Of a stretch of 24,126 bases of DNA, positions 2,190 to 21,764 are shown in pieces. The position numbers and the translations under genes are program-made. Each line of letters opens with the position of its first letter. Within the stretch, counting starts at the first letter, position 1. The notes under the pieces were generated by a model. The model did no database searches. It saw only the letters and a list, made by a program, of their open reading frames with translations, and had not been told where the DNA came from. Origin of the DNA: a virus; IMG/VR virus record IMGVR_UViG_3300025154_000380, positions 1-24,126 of that record, one strand, 5' to 3'.

Positions 2190-2624
2190 TTACGAAACGG
2201 TTATTTTAAATATTCCATCTGCGCTCCATTGAATTAGAAATGTACCTGCTGAACTAGACTCATCTGCTCCGAAATCAACGTAACCTAGCAACGGACTTGT
2301 CGAAGCAACACCAGTATCCACATAAATAACTGCATATCGAGCGGTAATGGTGGCGGTTGTCCAACTTGTATCAGCGGCATCGAGTTTTATTATGTTTGTT
2401 CCGGTATCATAGGCTATTGTTTTACTTGCTAAAGTAGCACCGCCAGCAGAATAACCAACGCCAGTTACTTCGTTAGTCACATCATCTTTATAATCATGCG
2501 TATCTTGATTGGGCGTATAAGTTGATGTGCATAGCATTACCTTTACGGTGTCTGTATCGAAATCAATTTCCTTGTTAAGCGCCTTAAGTAAGGCCTGACC
2601 AAACCATTTAGCTGAAACTGCCAT
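2190..2624 (-). CDS. Phage structural protein, 144 aa
   Basis: The product has 144 residues and begins MAVSAKWFGQALLKALNKEIDF after a strong AAGGAGGTAGAACTAAT leader. The order of elements (short amphipathic helix, DTDTVKVMLCTSTYTPNQDTHDY, then a beta-rich half ending in FGADESSSAGTFLIQWSADGIFKI) is one I associate with small phage structural proteins found beside fibre genes in many phage and prophage genomes. There is no enzyme motif. It probably forms part of the tail, neck or capsid surface. Confidence is high that it is a real virion gene and low for its exact location in the particle. Confidence 0.82.
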   Translation of the reverse strand: MAVSAKWFGQALLKALNKEIDFDTDTVKVMLCTSTYTPNQDTHDYKDDVTNEVTGVGYSAGGATLASKTIAYDTGTNIIKLDAADTSWTTATITARYAVIYVDTGVASTSPLLGYVDFGADESSSAGTFLIQWSADGIFKITVS

Positions 2625-2645
2625 ATTAGTTCTACCTCCTTAAGT

Positions 2646-4157
2646 TTATTCTGGTGCTGGCATTATTCCAGCGGCAATCAATAATGTTTCAAGGTTAGCA
2701 ATATAAGCATTCATGTCTGTTTGGTACTGCGTTATTGCGGCGAAGTTCTGATTATACTGTTTCATCGTCTTAGTTACTGCCCCGGTATAACTGCTAACCT
2801 GCCGGAAATTATCGTTTGTAGCATCTGCCGCCTGCTTAGTGTCGGTATGGGATGCACGTTTAAATGTTAGGGTTTTTAGTTCTTTCGTTATTAGTGCAGG
2901 AACATTAGGGTTATCTCCGCCGGGGTCTGGTTCGGCATTTTTAATAAACTTAGCACTTACAACATCGCTCCATAACCCTGTTATCAAGTTATATGCCGCT
3001 ACTTTCATGCTTGCGGAAACAGACAACGTAAAAGGTATGATATATGCCGTACTATCAGTTGTAGGAGTGGTTCCATCAGTCGTATAATACGCAACACAGT
3101 CAGTATCCACATTGCCTATAGTTACAGTTACGCTACCACTAAATGTTTCACCGCTAGGAGTTGTGGTTGGTGTATCTAGGTAAAACGCAGGGTAAGTATT
3201 TCCTTCATCTATTTTCCATTTTTCAGCAAAATCCCAGCTTAAAAATGTTGCCTGTGCTTTCATTTCTATTGTGGTTTTGGGAATACCCTTGTCTATATCA
3301 GATTGGCCGGAAGTTTCGGAATCGTAGTATGAATTAGTTATCTGGTATTCCGTGCTTGACCACTCGTAACTCTCGATGACACCTATTAAACCACCCATAG
3401 AACCGTAAACCGTAATACCTTGCGAAATTAAACCAATTGAGTAGCAATTTATTGCACTAAATTCTCCACTGGCTGATGCGCCATAATAACCTATAAGACC
3501 GCCAAAATTACATGTTGTGAATTCGTTTGTAGTTACACTAACAACACTACCTCTTGCAAAACAATCTAGTAGATAGCCAAAATCTATGTCACCTATCAAA
3601 CCTCCTGCATTTCCATACATTACCTGAACATTACCATAGGCATAGCACTCTGTGGCATTAATACCTGACAAAACTTGACCTATTAGACCACCAACATAGT
3701 TACCTGAATAAATATCTGCGATTCCATTTATATTTATCCCGGAAGAACATTTATCTATGGTTGGATTACCAAATACCTGCCCTATTAGACCACCAAGGGT
3801 ATTTGTTCCGGTGATTTGGCCACTTAATGCTTTACAATTAATTATCTCGCTGCTACTACCCGAAACCTGAGCGCAAAGCGCACCAATTGCATTAGTTCCT
3901 GTAATACTAACATTAGTTAGTCTTACGTTTTTTATCGTTGCATTACTTACGGAACCAAATAAACCCAAAAAGGAAGTTTCATTTTGACTTAAGTTGTCTA
4001 TGATAAACTTGTTACCGTCATACTGACCATCAAAAGAATCAATGGGAACCCAATTAGCATAGCCACTCAAATCAATATCGGCCATCTGGATATATTCACC
4101 AGACAGATTATTCCGAACATTATCAAGGTCTTCTGCTGTCAAAATTTCTATTGCCAT
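2646..4157 (-). CDS. Adhesin-like virion protein: GLUG repeats plus chitobiase-type C-terminal domain
   Basis: The product has 503 residues. An N-terminal lead typical of GLUG proteins (residues 1-64, including FDGQYDGNKFIIDNL) is followed by a run of GLUG-type repeats: GLFGSV near 65, GALCAQV near 92, then GGLIG cores near 122, 156, 185, 219 and 255. Residues about 333-404 match the chitobiase/beta-hexosaminidase C-terminal pattern (YYTTDGTTPTTDS, then VAAYN). The last 90 residues are helical, possibly a trimerising or virion-binding end. GLUG repeats occur in cell-surface adhesins and some proteases; here, with no catalytic domain, the likely job is binding host surface glycans or protein. 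It starts at ATG after GGTGAGAGT and ends 21 bases before the next gene. Confidence 0.85.
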   Translation of the reverse strand: MAIEILTAEDLDNVRNNLSGEYIQMADIDLSGYANWVPIDSFDGQYDGNKFIIDNLSQNETSFLGLFGSVSNATIKNVRLTNVSITGTNAIGALCAQVSGSSSEIINCKALSGQITGTNTLGGLIGQVFGNPTIDKCSSGININGIADIYSGNYVGGLIGQVLSGINATECYAYGNVQVMYGNAGGLIGDIDFGYLLDCFARGSVVSVTTNEFTTCNFGGLIGYYGASASGEFSAINCYSIGLISQGITVYGSMGGLIGVIESYEWSSTEYQITNSYYDSETSGQSDIDKGIPKTTIEMKAQATFLSWDFAEKWKIDEGNTYPAFYLDTPTTTPSGETFSGSVTVTIGNVDTDCVAYYTTDGTTPTTDSTAYIIPFTLSVSASMKVAAYNLITGLWSDVVSAKFIKNAEPDPGGDNPNVPALITKELKTLTFKRASHTDTKQAADATNDNFRQVSSYTGAVTKTMKQYNQNFAAITQYQTDMNAYIANLETLLIAAGIMPAPE

Positions 4158-8538: not shown

Positions 8539-8704
8539 CTAGCTAGGATTACAGCCATAGATAAAGCTGAAATCATCCCAACCATAAGAGAAACGTGCAA
8601 TTGTCGCATACTTAGCAATTTCAGTGTCGAAGTCCTCAGTTGCCTTAAATCCAGGTTGCCTTCTCCAATACCAATTTAAGAATTGCTTCATTCTCTCGCT
8701 ATCA
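8539..8704 (-). other. Second exon of the major capsid gene
   Basis: This 166-base segment has no start codon or ribosome binding site of its own. It encodes residues 245-298 of the capsid protein in the frame created by splicing, up to TAG at 8541..8539. The sequence (RMKQFLNWYWRRQPGFKATE, then FSYGWDDFSFIYGC) is what an intact coat protein of this type ends with, which is why a mutated or truncated capsid gene is unlikely. Confidence 0.88.
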
Positions 8705-9900
8705 CACATGCCATATGTTAACTGTATGTTTCCATGCAGAGCAGACTATATCATCCCTTTCGGGGACGGCGCTTATGGACATTATTGTTTCCTCAGTCCT
8801 AGTCGTTGAACCTTCACCCGCCCTCGTCTCTATTGACTACATCGGGTGCTTGGCTGCTGATTTCCCATTGTTTCATCCACTAACTTTTCAAGCCATCACA
8901 TTCACCGTTACCAGTCGTGTTGTGGCATAGTGGTTTTAGGGGGTTCCAGCAATTCACCGTCTTTGCAATTATATCTGTGAACATTTTTTCATAATCTTTT
9001 TCATGTCCATTGACCTTACTTCTATGACAGTCATCGCAAAGCGAAATTAAGTTATTTTTGTCAAATATTTTAGATGGATCTTCTTTTACTGTTATTATAT
9101 GAAAAAGATTGTCAACGGACTAATTAGATTACTAATTGGTATCACATATATAATGGGTCCTAGTGTTTGAACCAAGCGTTAGCGTCTGTCAACCAAGGCC
9201 ATTCAACTACATTGAACACGCCTTTCCAGACGTTTACGCCGTGGTCGGTTGTCCCAGGCTTTTCCTCAGTATCGGCAATAACCCTTGCAGGTTCAAATAA
9301 TTCAGTCGGCACGATCAGAGTATCCGGCATAACCAAGAATGGATTACCCTTATCGTCCTCCCAACGACGCATATTGTTTCTAACGGTAGTCACGTTAGCG
9401 GCAGTCAGCGCATATGTGCCGAAGTTTGAAGTTACGGCAGAACTTCCAGGTGCTTTCGGGTGCGATGCAGAACAAAGAGCAACCCCATCTGGACCGGCAT
9501 AAGATGCGTTAAAAGCGTTATTAAACGGTATAGCAGCATGATACTGAATAGTTCTATATTCAACCATACGGAGATTACGGACACGCTTTTTAATCTCGCC
9601 GTATTGTTCGTCCTCAACTAACTCGCGCTCAATCTGTGTACCTTTAGAATATTTACGGTGAATATAGTTAGAAGTGAAACCTTTCCTAAAGTCCTCATAA
9701 GAAACTTTATTCCCTGTTGCTCCCCATTCTTCCATTAACCCTAAGTCACCGATGCCCTGATTAGTTTCCTGCGCTTTTGTGGAGTTTTCCACGTTATACA
9801 TCAGACCAAGGAAGTCCTTTTCTTTCTTACCGGCCAAGTCAAATATCTTCCTTAGACCAGGTTCAAGTTGCTCTGCCCAATTGTCAGAAATTAACGGCAT
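8539..9900 (-). CDS. Major capsid protein, split by a group I intron (exons 9170..9900 and 8539..8704)
   Basis: The unspliced frame gives only 246 residues and stops at TAG 9162..9160 after DANAWFKH. Removing 8705..9169 joins TT (end of exon 1) to T (start of exon 2) and continues NAWF-DSERMKQFLNWYW, giving 298 residues, a normal length for this type of HK97-fold coat protein. The restored end (FDTEIAKYATIARFSYGWDDFSFIYG) is the conserved closing segment of such coat proteins. Other features are an N-terminal helical arm (residues 1-45), a long E-loop-like stretch near 80-120 and a conserved EWPWLTDANAWF. Start: ATG with GAGGAGG 9 bases upstream. It follows scaffold and decoration genes, is preceded by a hairpin at 9921..9953 and ends at a terminator. 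It should form the icosahedral shell. Confidence 0.9.
8705..9169 (-). ncRNA. Self-splicing group I intron (IA-like) in the major capsid gene
   Basis: The 465-base intron shows the whole catalytic core on the minus strand. P1: exon GGUU plus intron C pairs with GGACC (9160..9156), putting a U.G pair at the 5' splice site. P3: GACGGUG (8961..8955) with CGCCGUC (8771..8765). P4: UGCUG (8951..8947) with CAGCA (8859..8855). P6: CACCCG (8848..8843) with CGGGUG (8820..8815). P7: GACUA (8804..8800) with UAGUC (8748..8744). P7.1: GGAC/GUCC (8799..8796, 8780..8777), typical of subgroup IA. P8: CCC-GAAA-GGG. The P/Q/R/S consensus blocks are recognisable, for example GUUCAACGACUAG and GAUGAUAUAGUCUG. The last intron base is G8705. 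Splicing restores the capsid frame exactly. A P10 helix is weak. Confidence 0.9.
8880..9119 (-). pseudogene. Degenerate HNH homing endonuclease inside the intron
   Basis: An open stretch of 79 codons between TAG 9122..9120 and TAG 8882..8880 reads VDNLFHIITVKED, DKNNLISLCDDCHRSKVNGHE. The FHII, NNL and CDDCHR segments are the three parts of an HNH nuclease core, with one CxxC pair. There is no ATG, GTG or TTG before the core, and the N-terminal DNA-binding half and first CxxC of intron-borne HNH enzymes are absent. The first of the usual two His residues is Phe. The tail runs into P3-P5 of the ribozyme, as is common for free-standing intron ORFs. I judge it a dead remnant of the enzyme that once spread the intron; expression from a non-standard start cannot be excluded. 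Confidence 0.78.
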
Positions 9901-13907: not shown

Positions 13908-14345
13908 TTAGTTATCGTCTAAATCATCACATAGTGTTGCGTAGAAGTTTTGGACTGCTTTTATTGTACGATCATTGCGCTCTGCCCGTTCTTCTGGAGT
14001 ATATTGCTTCCTTGGAGGATAAGCGTCTATATGCCATTTTTGAGCATAATACCAAGCATAGAAATCATTATAACCCCATACAGTAATAGCTTTTTCGCAC
14101 TCACTAAATAATCCGTTTTCTTCCCAAACATTTTCTTCCGCATAACCTGTTTCAATGTTCTTGAAGGGATAGTTACTACCCTCGTATTTAGCCTCTAAGT
14201 CTGCCTCATGCTCAGAATAGACTAAAACACTATGCCCCTCATGCTCTTTTAGGAGAGTAGGCATCATGCGGATAGTGGTTGTATCCTTGCCAATATCATA
14301 ATATTTCTTGCAGTCCTCACACACAAAAGTATATTCAGTTCCCAC
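13908..14345 (-). CDS. Putative zinc-binding accessory protein (CxxC...HEGH), paralogue 1
   Basis: The product has 145 residues. The N-terminus has FVCEDCKKYYDIG, then LLKEHEGHSVLVYSEHE near residue 33-50: two Cys and two or more His spaced as a possible zinc site. The rest is acidic with many Trp and Tyr, ending DDLDDN. The same N-terminal layout recurs in 20183..20626, so the two are paralogues or members of one phage family. It starts at GTG 14345, preceded by the repeated leader ACCGAGGACGGTG. Function is unknown; a small nucleic-acid-binding or protein-binding finger is plausible. Confidence 0.78.
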   Translation of the reverse strand: MGTEYTFVCEDCKKYYDIGKDTTTIRMMPTLLKEHEGHSVLVYSEHEADLEAKYEGSNYPFKNIETGYAEENVWEENGLFSECEKAITVWGYNDFYAWYYAQKWHIDAYPPRKQYTPEERAERNDRTIKAVQNFYATLCDDLDDN

Positions 14346-14647: not shown

Positions 14648-14652
14648 TATGT

Positions 14653-14669
14653 CACCGTCCTCGGTTATT
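14653..14669 (-). repeat. Repeated gene leader AATAACCGAGGACGGTG, copy 2
   Basis: Identical over 17 bases to 14351..14367. It directly follows the TAA of the 37-residue peptide and supplies the ribosome binding site of the GTG-started gene at 14647. Confidence 0.7.
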
Positions 14670-14781
14670 ATTTCTTCTTCCCGTAACCCATACCCTTTCC
14701 CATTTCTTTCTTTTCGGACTTAGGCATCGACATACCTTTACCCATGCCCTTCATACCTTTACCGCCCTTACAACCTGCCAT
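14668..14781 (-). CDS. Met/Gly/Lys-rich phage micro-protein, 37 aa
   Basis: A 37-residue frame begins at ATG 14781 with an excellent site, AGGAGGTGG, 5 bases upstream, which itself overlaps the stop of the previous gene. It reads MAGCKGGKGMKGMGKGM, then MPKSEKKEMGKGMGYGKKK: about one residue in five is Met, and most others are Gly or Lys. Two TAA stops end it. Such a composition is not expected from a chance frame with so strong a ribosome binding site. It might bind nucleic acid or metal (Met clusters, one Cys), or act as a small structural filler; function is unknown. Confidence 0.72.
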   Translation of the reverse strand: MAGCKGGKGMKGMGKGMSMPKSEKKEMGKGMGYGKKK

Positions 14782-14793
14782 TGTTACCACCTC

Positions 14794-14928
14794 CTAATCT
14801 AATTTAATATCCTTAGTAGGACTTATCATAACTACCCTGCCGCCCTTTGCTTTGACGGTAAGTGTTCCCCATCCTCCAAGGTTGCGTAGTTCTAAAATGA
14901 CTTTCTTTTCTGCATCAGTTAGTTGCAT
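14794..14928 (-). CDS. Small unknown phage protein, 44 aa
   Basis: A 44-residue frame starts at ATG 14928 with GGAGGTAAACG immediately upstream and ends at TAG 14796..14794, whose bases form part of the next gene's AGGAGG. The product (MQLTDAEKKVILELRNLGGW, then GTLTVKAKGGRVVMI) looks like a helix followed by a beta hairpin, similar in shape to a small winged-helix fragment or host-takeover protein. It overlaps the gene before by 10 bases. I do not recognise it. Confidence 0.68.
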   Translation of the reverse strand: MQLTDAEKKVILELRNLGGWGTLTVKAKGGRVVMISPTKDIKLD

Positions 14929-15071
14929 CGTTTACCTCCATAAACCCTTTCTGCTTCTTTGCCGGAAAGGATATAACTTTCTCCTTTAACCATACTCCTA
15001 TATTCAAAACTACCATTCCACTCTTGAATTTCCTCTGCCGTTGCTAATTGTATGCTTTTTATTTTAGCCAC
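14919..15071 (-). CDS. Small unknown phage protein, 50 aa
   Basis: A 50-residue frame starts at GTG 15071 behind ACCGGAGGTAATAAAA and ends at TAA 14921..14919, inside the next gene. The sequence (MAKIKSIQLATAEEIQEWNG, then VKGESYILSGKEAERVYGGK) is charged and compact. The 3' end of this gene contains the ribosome binding site of the 44-residue gene, so the two are probably translationally coupled. No family recognised. Confidence 0.68.
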   Translation of the reverse strand: MAKIKSIQLATAEEIQEWNGSFEYRSMVKGESYILSGKEAERVYGGKRCN

Positions 15072-15095
15072 TTTTATTACCTCCGGTTATCCGTT

Positions 15096-17132: not shown

Positions 17133-18779
17133 TTACATTCCGTAGAATCCCGGTAATCCTTCTTGTTCCTCATCGTCCTCATCTTCTGCCCATTGTTCCA
17201 TTGACTGAGCATTCAACCTTCTGCCCTTATCTTGACCAGGGAGAAAGGGAATGCTGTCGTTATTCTTAAAGGCAGTAGTCATATGAATATGTACTCCGAT
17301 AGCACACATTATAATTACATCATCATGCTGCCCACCCCTTGCCGCTTCTTTTCCGTTTGGGTGTCGGACAAAATTCATCGCTTCATCAACAAAGCGTTTC
17401 CAATAACACTCGAATACTCCTTCACGCACAACCTTTTTAATGGCATCAACGATTAACGGACGAGTCTTAGGAGTTGTATACCATCCTAGCTTCTGCCTTG
17501 TTTGGTCGCTGCGCTTATCGTAAACTTGCGTTCTGTATATATCATAGTAAACACGTTTAAGGTGACTGATTGTAGTTAGACCATGATTATTGCCCTCCGG
17601 TACTAGCATAGGCAGACCGTAGTATACGGCTAGTCTGTGCATATAGTCGGCTAAAACGTCCGGTTCAACGTGTCCATGATAGACAGCATCTAACCTTAAT
17701 CTATGCCGGTTAACAACGCCCACAGCATCGAAGTCGCCATGCTCTAAACCTTCGGCAACGTCAGCAGGTATTAGATATTCCGCGCCCTTCTCAGGATGGA
17801 ACCATATCTCGTATTCGCCCTTTTCTTCGGGTTGCCAATAGACTTGTACCTTTGCCGGACTTGTCCATATGAGGTTTCCACGCTCGCCGGGATAGCAGTT
17901 CTTCTGCATTTCAGCTATTCTGCCGATATTAAAAGAACATTTACCGGGCATAATAAAACGCCCATATTTCCGCGCTTCTAACTCCGCCTCATCCATAGAC
18001 GCTTCAAGGCGTTTCTTTTCATTTGCTGATAAATAAGGGTTATCGTTCCATTCAACCATTATCAAGAATATTTCATCGTCACGTTTTTCAATAGGTTTCG
18101 AGTCATTAAGATAGATGTCGTTATATACCCATGTCATACCTTGTAGCGGAGTCATTGTTCCAAATAAATCACCCTCGGTATCCATAAGGCGCATCATTAT
18201 TTCCGTGTATATATCCTTGGGACTTTCTTCGTCAAGCCACGCCCAATGCTGAGATGAACCTTGAAACTTCTCTCTGCCTTGGTCGTAGGACTTAAATCCG
18301 ATAATCCCACCCCCGACAAGGCGTATAGTGTCGATAATGCCTGTACTGCGGTAGGTTATCTTTTTAATCTCCCTTAATGGCAATAATCCAGGTATTCCGG
18401 TTTCAACATCACCCAATATTTTCTTTTGAGTAACGTCCCTTTGTACCTCGAAGGATACTGAACATACCCAACCACGGGTAGGTTTTCCGCCAAAACGAGT
18501 TATCAGAGGTTCGTACTTCTCTCTTAAATCATCCGGCCAATCTATAAGATAAGGGCGTATTCTCTCACCTAATGCAAGGAATACTGCCCTAATTGCGCCA
18601 GATTCCGTTTTTCCTGTACGATTCCCACCCAGTATCCAGCTATTCCTTTTATTGGATAATAGAAACTTTTCTTGCTTATCGTAGGGCCGGATAAAACGAA
18701 TATGTTCTTCTTTTTGCCGCCGTTCTAGTTCATTAATAAACCGTAACGCTTCTTTTTCCTTTGCTGTTAGTTTTGCCAT
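17133..18779 (-). CDS. terL: Terminase large subunit (packaging ATPase-nuclease)
   Basis: The product has 548 residues, a normal length. ATPase part: Walker A GGNRTGKTES at residues 51-60, Walker B WAWLDEE at about 179-185, and the coupling motif GTMTPL at 207-212. Nuclease part (RNase H-like): an acidic residue at D340 in PADVAEG, E395 in VPEGNN, and the paired Asp in GQHDDVII at 486-487. It pumps DNA into the procapsid through the portal and cuts the concatemer. All key residues are present. It starts at ATG with GGTGA upstream, directly after a fibre-like gene rather than after terS, with which it is normally adjacent. Confidence 0.96.
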   Translation of the reverse strand: MAKLTAKEKEALRFINELERRQKEEHIRFIRPYDKQEKFLLSNKRNSWILGGNRTGKTESGAIRAVFLALGERIRPYLIDWPDDLREKYEPLITRFGGKPTRGWVCSVSFEVQRDVTQKKILGDVETGIPGLLPLREIKKITYRSTGIIDTIRLVGGGIIGFKSYDQGREKFQGSSQHWAWLDEESPKDIYTEIMMRLMDTEGDLFGTMTPLQGMTWVYNDIYLNDSKPIEKRDDEIFLIMVEWNDNPYLSANEKKRLEASMDEAELEARKYGRFIMPGKCSFNIGRIAEMQKNCYPGERGNLIWTSPAKVQVYWQPEEKGEYEIWFHPEKGAEYLIPADVAEGLEHGDFDAVGVVNRHRLRLDAVYHGHVEPDVLADYMHRLAVYYGLPMLVPEGNNHGLTTISHLKRVYYDIYRTQVYDKRSDQTRQKLGWYTTPKTRPLIVDAIKKVVREGVFECYWKRFVDEAMNFVRHPNGKEAARGGQHDDVIIMCAIGVHIHMTTAFKNNDSIPFLPGQDKGRRLNAQSMEQWAEDEDDEEQEGLPGFYGM

Positions 18780-20182: not shown

Positions 20183-20626
20183 TTAGTCTATAAATTTAGG
20201 TATCAATAAACCACTTTCCGTTTCCTCTACATATATATCTATATCATTTACAACATCATCAACGGTAACAGACTTAGTTATCTTTGGACTACTATCACAA
20301 CTTGTATCAGACTCCATATTGATATACTCGTATTCGGAGAATCCTTCGCACAATAATTCATCTTGCCTACCATATACTCCATCTACATATAGATTGCCGT
20401 TACTCTCCGAACAATGATCATCTGACCATGCAAACCAATCATGTCCTTCATGTTCAATAAGACATTTATGGAAATTTTGATTCTTAGACAAACTCTTGTT
20501 TTCACCATCTAAGGCATCGTATTCTTTAATTGTTCCTACATGATCAAGCCAACTTAAATATGAACCATATCCAAGATAATAAGTCTTTTTGCAGTCAACA
20601 CAGGTGAAATTTCCACTCCTACCCAT
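20183..20626 (-). CDS. Putative zinc-binding accessory protein (CxxC...HEGH), paralogue 2
   Basis: The product has 147 residues. FTCVDCKKTYYLGYGSYLSW at residues 7-26 and LIEHEGHDWFAWSDDH at about 57-72 match the two blocks of the protein at 13908..14345. Residues further on are acidic and carry no clear domain. The two Cys and the His pair may bind zinc. The start is ATG 20626 with AGGGGTG about 8 bases upstream. It has an insertion of about 20 residues between the two blocks relative to its paralogue. Function unknown. Confidence 0.8.
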   Translation of the reverse strand: MGRSGNFTCVDCKKTYYLGYGSYLSWLDHVGTIKEYDALDGENKSLSKNQNFHKCLIEHEGHDWFAWSDDHCSESNGNLYVDGVYGRQDELLCEGFSEYEYINMESDTSCDSSPKITKSVTVDDVVNDIDIYVEETESGLLIPKFID

Positions 20627-21371: not shown

Positions 21372-21764
21372 TTATTCTCCTAATACTTCCTTGGCTTTTC
21401 GGGCTAATTCTGCAGAAGTGAGTTCCAACTCCACAGGGCCGCCGTCTTTGCCGGTCAGCTGAAGTTGTTGTGTATCGCTCCAGCCGTGGTTTTTCATCCA
21501 AAAAATAGCTCCGGCAGGATTCTTGCCGGAAAACAAGCTAGACTCCACAAAACGCTCTACTTTTGCCTTTGCCTTTTTAAGAACGTGTGAAAACTCTTCT
21601 ACTTCGGACCAATCAATCAGTCCTCGTCTATCCGTCCCAATCGCCAAAGCTAATCCTGTAATTGTTAAAGGTTCGCCCTTTTCTTCACACTCAGCAAAAT
21701 AAGCATCTATTAAAGGTTGCATTTCTTCGCCGCTCTTATATTTTCTCGGTCTACCTCCTGGCAT
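21372..21764 (-). CDS. terS: Terminase small subunit (gp3-like DNA-packaging protein)
   Basis: The product has 130 residues. It begins MPGGRPRKYKSGEEMQPLIDAYFAEC, then GEPLTITGLALAIGTDRRGLIDW (a helix-turn-helix-like DNA-recognition part), a long helix (residues about 57-77) and AGAIFWMKNHGWSD near residues 83-96. This order is that of the P22 gp3-type small terminase family. It binds the packaging site and recruits TerL. It starts at ATG behind GAGGTGAAGTT. Unusually, nearly 2.6 kb and seven genes or spaces separate it from terL. Confidence 0.9.
   Translation of the reverse strand: MPGGRPRKYKSGEEMQPLIDAYFAECEEKGEPLTITGLALAIGTDRRGLIDWSEVEEFSHVLKKAKAKVERFVESSLFSGKNPAGAIFWMKNHGWSDTQQLQLTGKDGGPVELELTSAELARKAKEVLGE

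Follow-up and report, generated by a model that had tools for sequence, protein, structure and literature searches.

In mycobacteriophage LittleE (Cluster J), the major capsid gene is interrupted by an intron whose splicing was proven by RT-PCR and protein sequencing (PMC3706429). That paper also refers to the lactococcal phage Tuc2009, whose capsid subunit gene carries a group I intron. Furthermore, a survey of introns in Bastillevirinae described HNH endonucleases encoded in intron loops as well as split endonuclease genes (PMC11878797). The locus analysed here lies in a 24,126-nt stretch of viral DNA (IMGVR_UViG_3300025154_000380; the whole stretch is referred to as the window), in which a phage major capsid gene almost certainly holds a P7.1-bearing group I intron of mobile origin (9169..8711) that is predicted to splice and whose endonuclease has been mostly deleted. 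Like this intron, the one in LittleE is most likely of group I, resides in the major capsid gene, follows an exon ending in U, ends in G, was recognised against intron-free relatives and contains a putative homing endonuclease (PMC3706429). In contrast, the LittleE intron, likened here by description, measures 819 bp and lies close to where the mature capsid begins, while its endonuclease is encoded on the opposite strand and is LAGLIDADG-like according to the text (PMC3706429). Introns of the Bastille/SPO1 type share with the window the group I class, the phage context and an HNH homing endonuclease in a loop, but reside in genes for DNA polymerase, ribonucleotide reductase, thymidylate synthase and terminase, and capsid is nowhere mentioned in the main text of that survey (PMC11878797).

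All features of the locus are encoded on the minus strand. The capsid frame runs from 9900 to a stop at 9160..9162 and, read unspliced, yields 246 aa ending in ...NAWFKH, as had been predicted. Profile searches with this frame revealed matches to Mu-like_gpT of Pfam (PF10124, E 1.4e-14) and to the PHROG major head protein family phrog_371 (3.4e-16), and the spliced protein matched PF10124 (1.6e-15) and PF25209 (4.1e-8); a Mu gpT-like major capsid protein of the HK97 type (HK97 fold) is supported as the product of the interrupted gene. Exon 1 (9170..9900, 731 nt) comprises 243 codons and two bases of F244 and aligns with all empty alleles, while exon 2 (8539..8710), supported by the empty alleles (L002, L004, L034-L039) and a dN/dS of ~0.07, supplies the third base of F244, residues 245-300 and the stop. 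The insertion at codon 244 is close to the 3' end of the gene, and without splicing the protein would lack its last 56 residues, which are conserved; 54 had originally been counted. The original prediction had also placed this C-terminus in another frame, which proved incorrect: both exons share one frame (459 and 465, the present and the earlier intron length, are both multiples of three), and the unspliced protein ends early because of stops inside the intron, with no frame change. The capsid had no relative among the 84,980 species genomes searched, and no host was therefore assigned to the phage.

A cmscan search against Rfam matched 8722-9055 of the minus strand to RF00028, the model for group I introns, with 61.8 bits (E 1.1e-13), above its gathering score of 50 bits, and no other Rfam family was detected in the whole window, even at E<=1. 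The intron of a second phage contig, L014 (IMGVR_UViG_3300024999_000162), scored 63.3 bits with this model, and the match was absent from the 20 intron-free loci scanned (L002-L004 and 17 further). Among the capsid loci compared, the site is occupied in the window, L005-L007 and L014 and empty in L002-L004, L034, L036-L039 and L042, and the IMG/VR capsid search provided eight distinct uninterrupted alleles spanning it. The proteins of the empty alleles are 87-96% identical to the window capsid (L002/L003 96%, L004 87%), and all complete ones are exactly 300 residues long without a gap at the insertion point (L042, which runs out at its contig end, was left out of this length count). In each of them the insertion point is preceded by an invariant TGGTT. 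Excision of 9169..8711 likewise gives 300 aa (...LTDANAWF-MCDSERMKQF...), in which the MCDSER following AWF aligns with LADSER, MLDSER or MMDSER of the empty alleles; distant phage capsids (26-29% identity) also run on past AWF, gapless at the site.

The intron is accordingly delimited to 8711..9169 (459 nt, first base C9169, terminal G8711) on the basis of RF00028, the 300-aa empty alleles and the boundaries in L014. The predicted spliced junction (9170/8710) reads TGGTT followed by CATGTGTGAT, and the predicted junction-spanning peptide is ...LTDANAWFMCDSER. The intron and exon 2 both start with C, so that cutting one base further on would result in an identical mRNA, and 9169..8711 was chosen because of the U.G and terminal-G rules. 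The original prediction had the 5' end of the intron right, but placed the 3' splice site at 8705/8704, giving an intron of 465 nt (8705-9169) and a product of 298 residues across NAWF-DSERM. With this site the frame is likewise preserved, and a terminal G of the intron would again be obtained; however, the junction would read TGGTT-TGATAGC, the complete empty alleles all have 300 codons with MCDSER aligning directly after AWF, and P10 is better with 8711. The 8705 site was therefore rejected on empty-allele length and appears very improbable. The gapless alignment with intron-free capsid genes moves the 3' end by 6 nt to 8711, and the predicted restoration of one capsid frame stands with a product of 300 aa across NAWF-MCDSERM.

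Analysis of the predicted RNA structure revealed that the group I core helices are paired in both the window and L014, comprising the P3-P8 and P4-P6 domains and P7, the helix of the guanosine site. P1 (9156..9173), which was assigned by hand, pairs exon GGUU and C9169 with the internal guide GGACC (9160-9156), is present in the unconstrained minimum-free-energy fold and is identical in L014; GGUUC/GGACC contains the U9170.G wobble at the 5' splice site, which, like the G at the intron end, had been correctly recognised. The P2 stem (8968..9154) joins AUUAUAUAUGUG (9154-9143) with CACAGAUAUAAU (8979-8968), with 11 of 12 positions paired according to the minimum-free-energy fold and pairing count, and its loop contains most of an endonuclease remnant. 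The placement of P1/P2 by Rfam (~9055-8970) was rejected, as this stretch codes for the endonuclease and a proper P1 is formed where exon 1 meets the intron. The ribozyme core follows in the order P3-P4-P5-P6-P7-P7.1-P3'-P8-P7'-P9 (8722..8964; cmscan alignment, folds and pairing list), including P3 (GACGGUG/CGCCGUC), P7 (GACUA/UAGUC) and P7.1 (GGAC/GUCC). P3, P4, P5, P6, P7, P7.1, P8 and P9 pair in the window and in L014, with one mismatch in P9 of the window, so that all helices of the original prediction (P1, P3, P4, P6, P7, P7.1 and P8) were recovered and P5 and P9 can be added to them. The P7.1 element would fit subgroup IA, which is marked by P7.1 (and P7.2) between P7 and P3'; of these two, P7.1 alone was assigned. 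Unconstrained folding of the intron recovers P1, P3, P4, P5, P6, P7.1 and P8. As the core fold energy is only mildly better than that of shuffled sequences (z -1.8), it is the covariance model and the comparison of alleles that carry the group I case. A possible P10 (8704..8710) between the exon-2 start CAUGUGU and intron ACACUAG is weak and imperfect, with 5/7 pairs.

Comparison of exon 2 of the window with L002, L004 and L014 gave dN/dS values of 0.068-0.078, similar to those of exon 1 (0.03-0.09), with 4-6 amino-acid changes and 11-16 synonymous-only codon changes. Exon 2 is evidently under purifying selection and the spliced protein evidently used; as the C-terminus behind the intron appears to be kept as protein, splicing would be required. 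Because the covariance model, the empty-site alleles and the purifying selection on exon 2 agree, we consider the full-length capsid protein to be restored by splicing, and the same three lines bear out the prediction of a group I intron near the 3' end of the major capsid gene.

A loss of splicing, with the truncated 246-aa protein as the working capsid or with the locus being dead, would be in keeping with the decayed endonuclease gene and with the KH-stop end that the unspliced frame has in both occupied alleles. However, this stop is common to both alleles because the P1 loop and the guide sequence are conserved. The ribozyme core, moreover, is fully paired and nearly unchanged compared to L014, the selection on exon 2 is strong, and the window sequence recurs identically across 12.7 kb in three IMG/VR records, all of which leaves a loss of splicing barely credible. 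A use of both products, with a controlled ratio between the 246-residue unspliced variant (WFKH end in both occupied alleles) and the form of 300 residues, strikes us as just as far-fetched; if true, the endonuclease-free intron would regulate the composition of the capsid. An insert in a conserved gene could also be explained by a transposon insertion, a group II intron or an intein, but their probability is negligible, as the insert has stops in every frame, which excludes an intein, its sole RNA family match is group I, which led us to reject a group II intron as well, its 459 nt encode neither a reverse transcriptase nor a transposase, and the U.G and terminal-G rules are obeyed.

Within the intron, an HNH homing-endonuclease remnant (8880..9101; Pfam HNH 3.1e-5) was identified, which the original prediction had overlooked. 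Its sequence (HIITVKEDPSKIFDKNNLISLCDDCH...) covers the C-terminal portion of such an enzyme, the start and ~230 N-terminal codons being deleted, and from the P2 insert it extends across the P3 and P4 5' strands into the P5 loop. A scan with this remnant revealed one other phage contig, L014, from a relative with the same capsid gene, which carries, at the identical site, an intron of 1185 nt with an intact ORF of 301 codons (Pfam HNH 2.9e-8), to which the remnant is 89-90% identical; weak HTH-like matches were observed at the N-terminus of this ORF. Both introns follow TGGTT in the capsid gene and share the same P1 and guide and the same 3' structure. They differ in the P2 insert, which contains the intact HNH gene in L014, whereas the window, with its 459-nt intron, encodes no intact intron-borne HNH endonuclease and lacks ~730 bp (junction ~9107-9101). 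In L014, the last ~30 codons of the HNH ORF (2314-3219) also form P2 3', P3 5' and P4 5' of the ribozyme; coding and catalytic sequence thus overlap, and translation and folding should therefore compete.

Over 254 nt, the intron core of the window shares 95.7% identity with that of L014, compared to 81% for exon 1, and RNA constraint may partly explain this higher identity. For the P2-loop part of the remnant, dS amounts to 0.53, whereas exon 1 stretches of the same length have a median of 0.85; this may point to a transfer of the intron after the two phages had diverged. In exon 2 the window resembles L014 (88%) more than L002 (85%), whereas in exon 1 it resembles L002 more (89% vs 81%), and bases 2-25 of exon 2 are identical in the window and L014. 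This pattern, which comprises few sites, hints at co-conversion of the 3' flank.

For the group I intron that we favour, the transcribed RNA would fold, guanosine would attack after U9170 at the U.G pair in P1, and ligation of the exons would lead to the 300-residue capsid protein. The intron would have come in as a mobile element, with the HNH endonuclease, still intact in L014, cutting an empty site into which the intron is then copied; later deletion of most of the endonuclease gene in the window phage would have left an intron that still splices but has lost its self-mobility. At the sequence level, this reading draws on the match to the ribozyme model, the exact empty sites, the occupation of the site in two diverged phages, the intact and truncated endonucleases and the purifying selection on exon 2, while splicing in vivo, endonuclease activity and homing would follow by analogy with established group I introns. 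Empty alleles, alleles with intron and nuclease and alleles with intron and dead nuclease coexist in a single group of phages, in agreement with the homing cycle. From the empty site via the intron with its HNH gene intact to the intron with that gene truncated, the locus thereby provides a compact natural series within one uncultured phage group, which can serve to exemplify this cycle in a structural gene that is essential and highly expressed. Automatic annotation would report a truncated major capsid protein that misses the conserved C-terminus.

Several further features were observed in the window and a related contig. A RAGATH-18 RNA (60.3 bits, gathering 44.9) is located downstream of the intron-free capsid gene of L037 (4912-4973) and is absent from the window. 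The latter contains the genes of the large and small terminase subunits (17133-18779 and 21372-21764, minus strand), separated by ~2.6 kb of small ORFs. The N-termini of two small ORFs on its minus strand (13908-14345 and 20183-20626) resemble each other (F.C.DCKK.Y..G), and these ORFs seem to encode paralogous zinc-ribbon-like proteins. Coding sequence is dense in the rest of the genome, but ~450 bases (14648-15095) contain no ORF of at least 60 aa and gave no match in Rfam.

Comparison of the intron core with 50,697 phage records gave Alicyclobacillus phage KKP_3916 (OQ846916.1) as the best DNA match (72% over 166 nt), the intron-like matched stretch of which carries no annotated feature. 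Regarding other capsid-gene introns, only the Cluster J paper (PMC3706429) was a clear case in the literature searched. Tuc2009, as cited there, shares with the window a capsid gene interrupted by a group I intron, but belongs to a different phage lineage. Phage capsid genes with introns have been described before, and the window adds another case while leaving the knowledge of group I introns unchanged.
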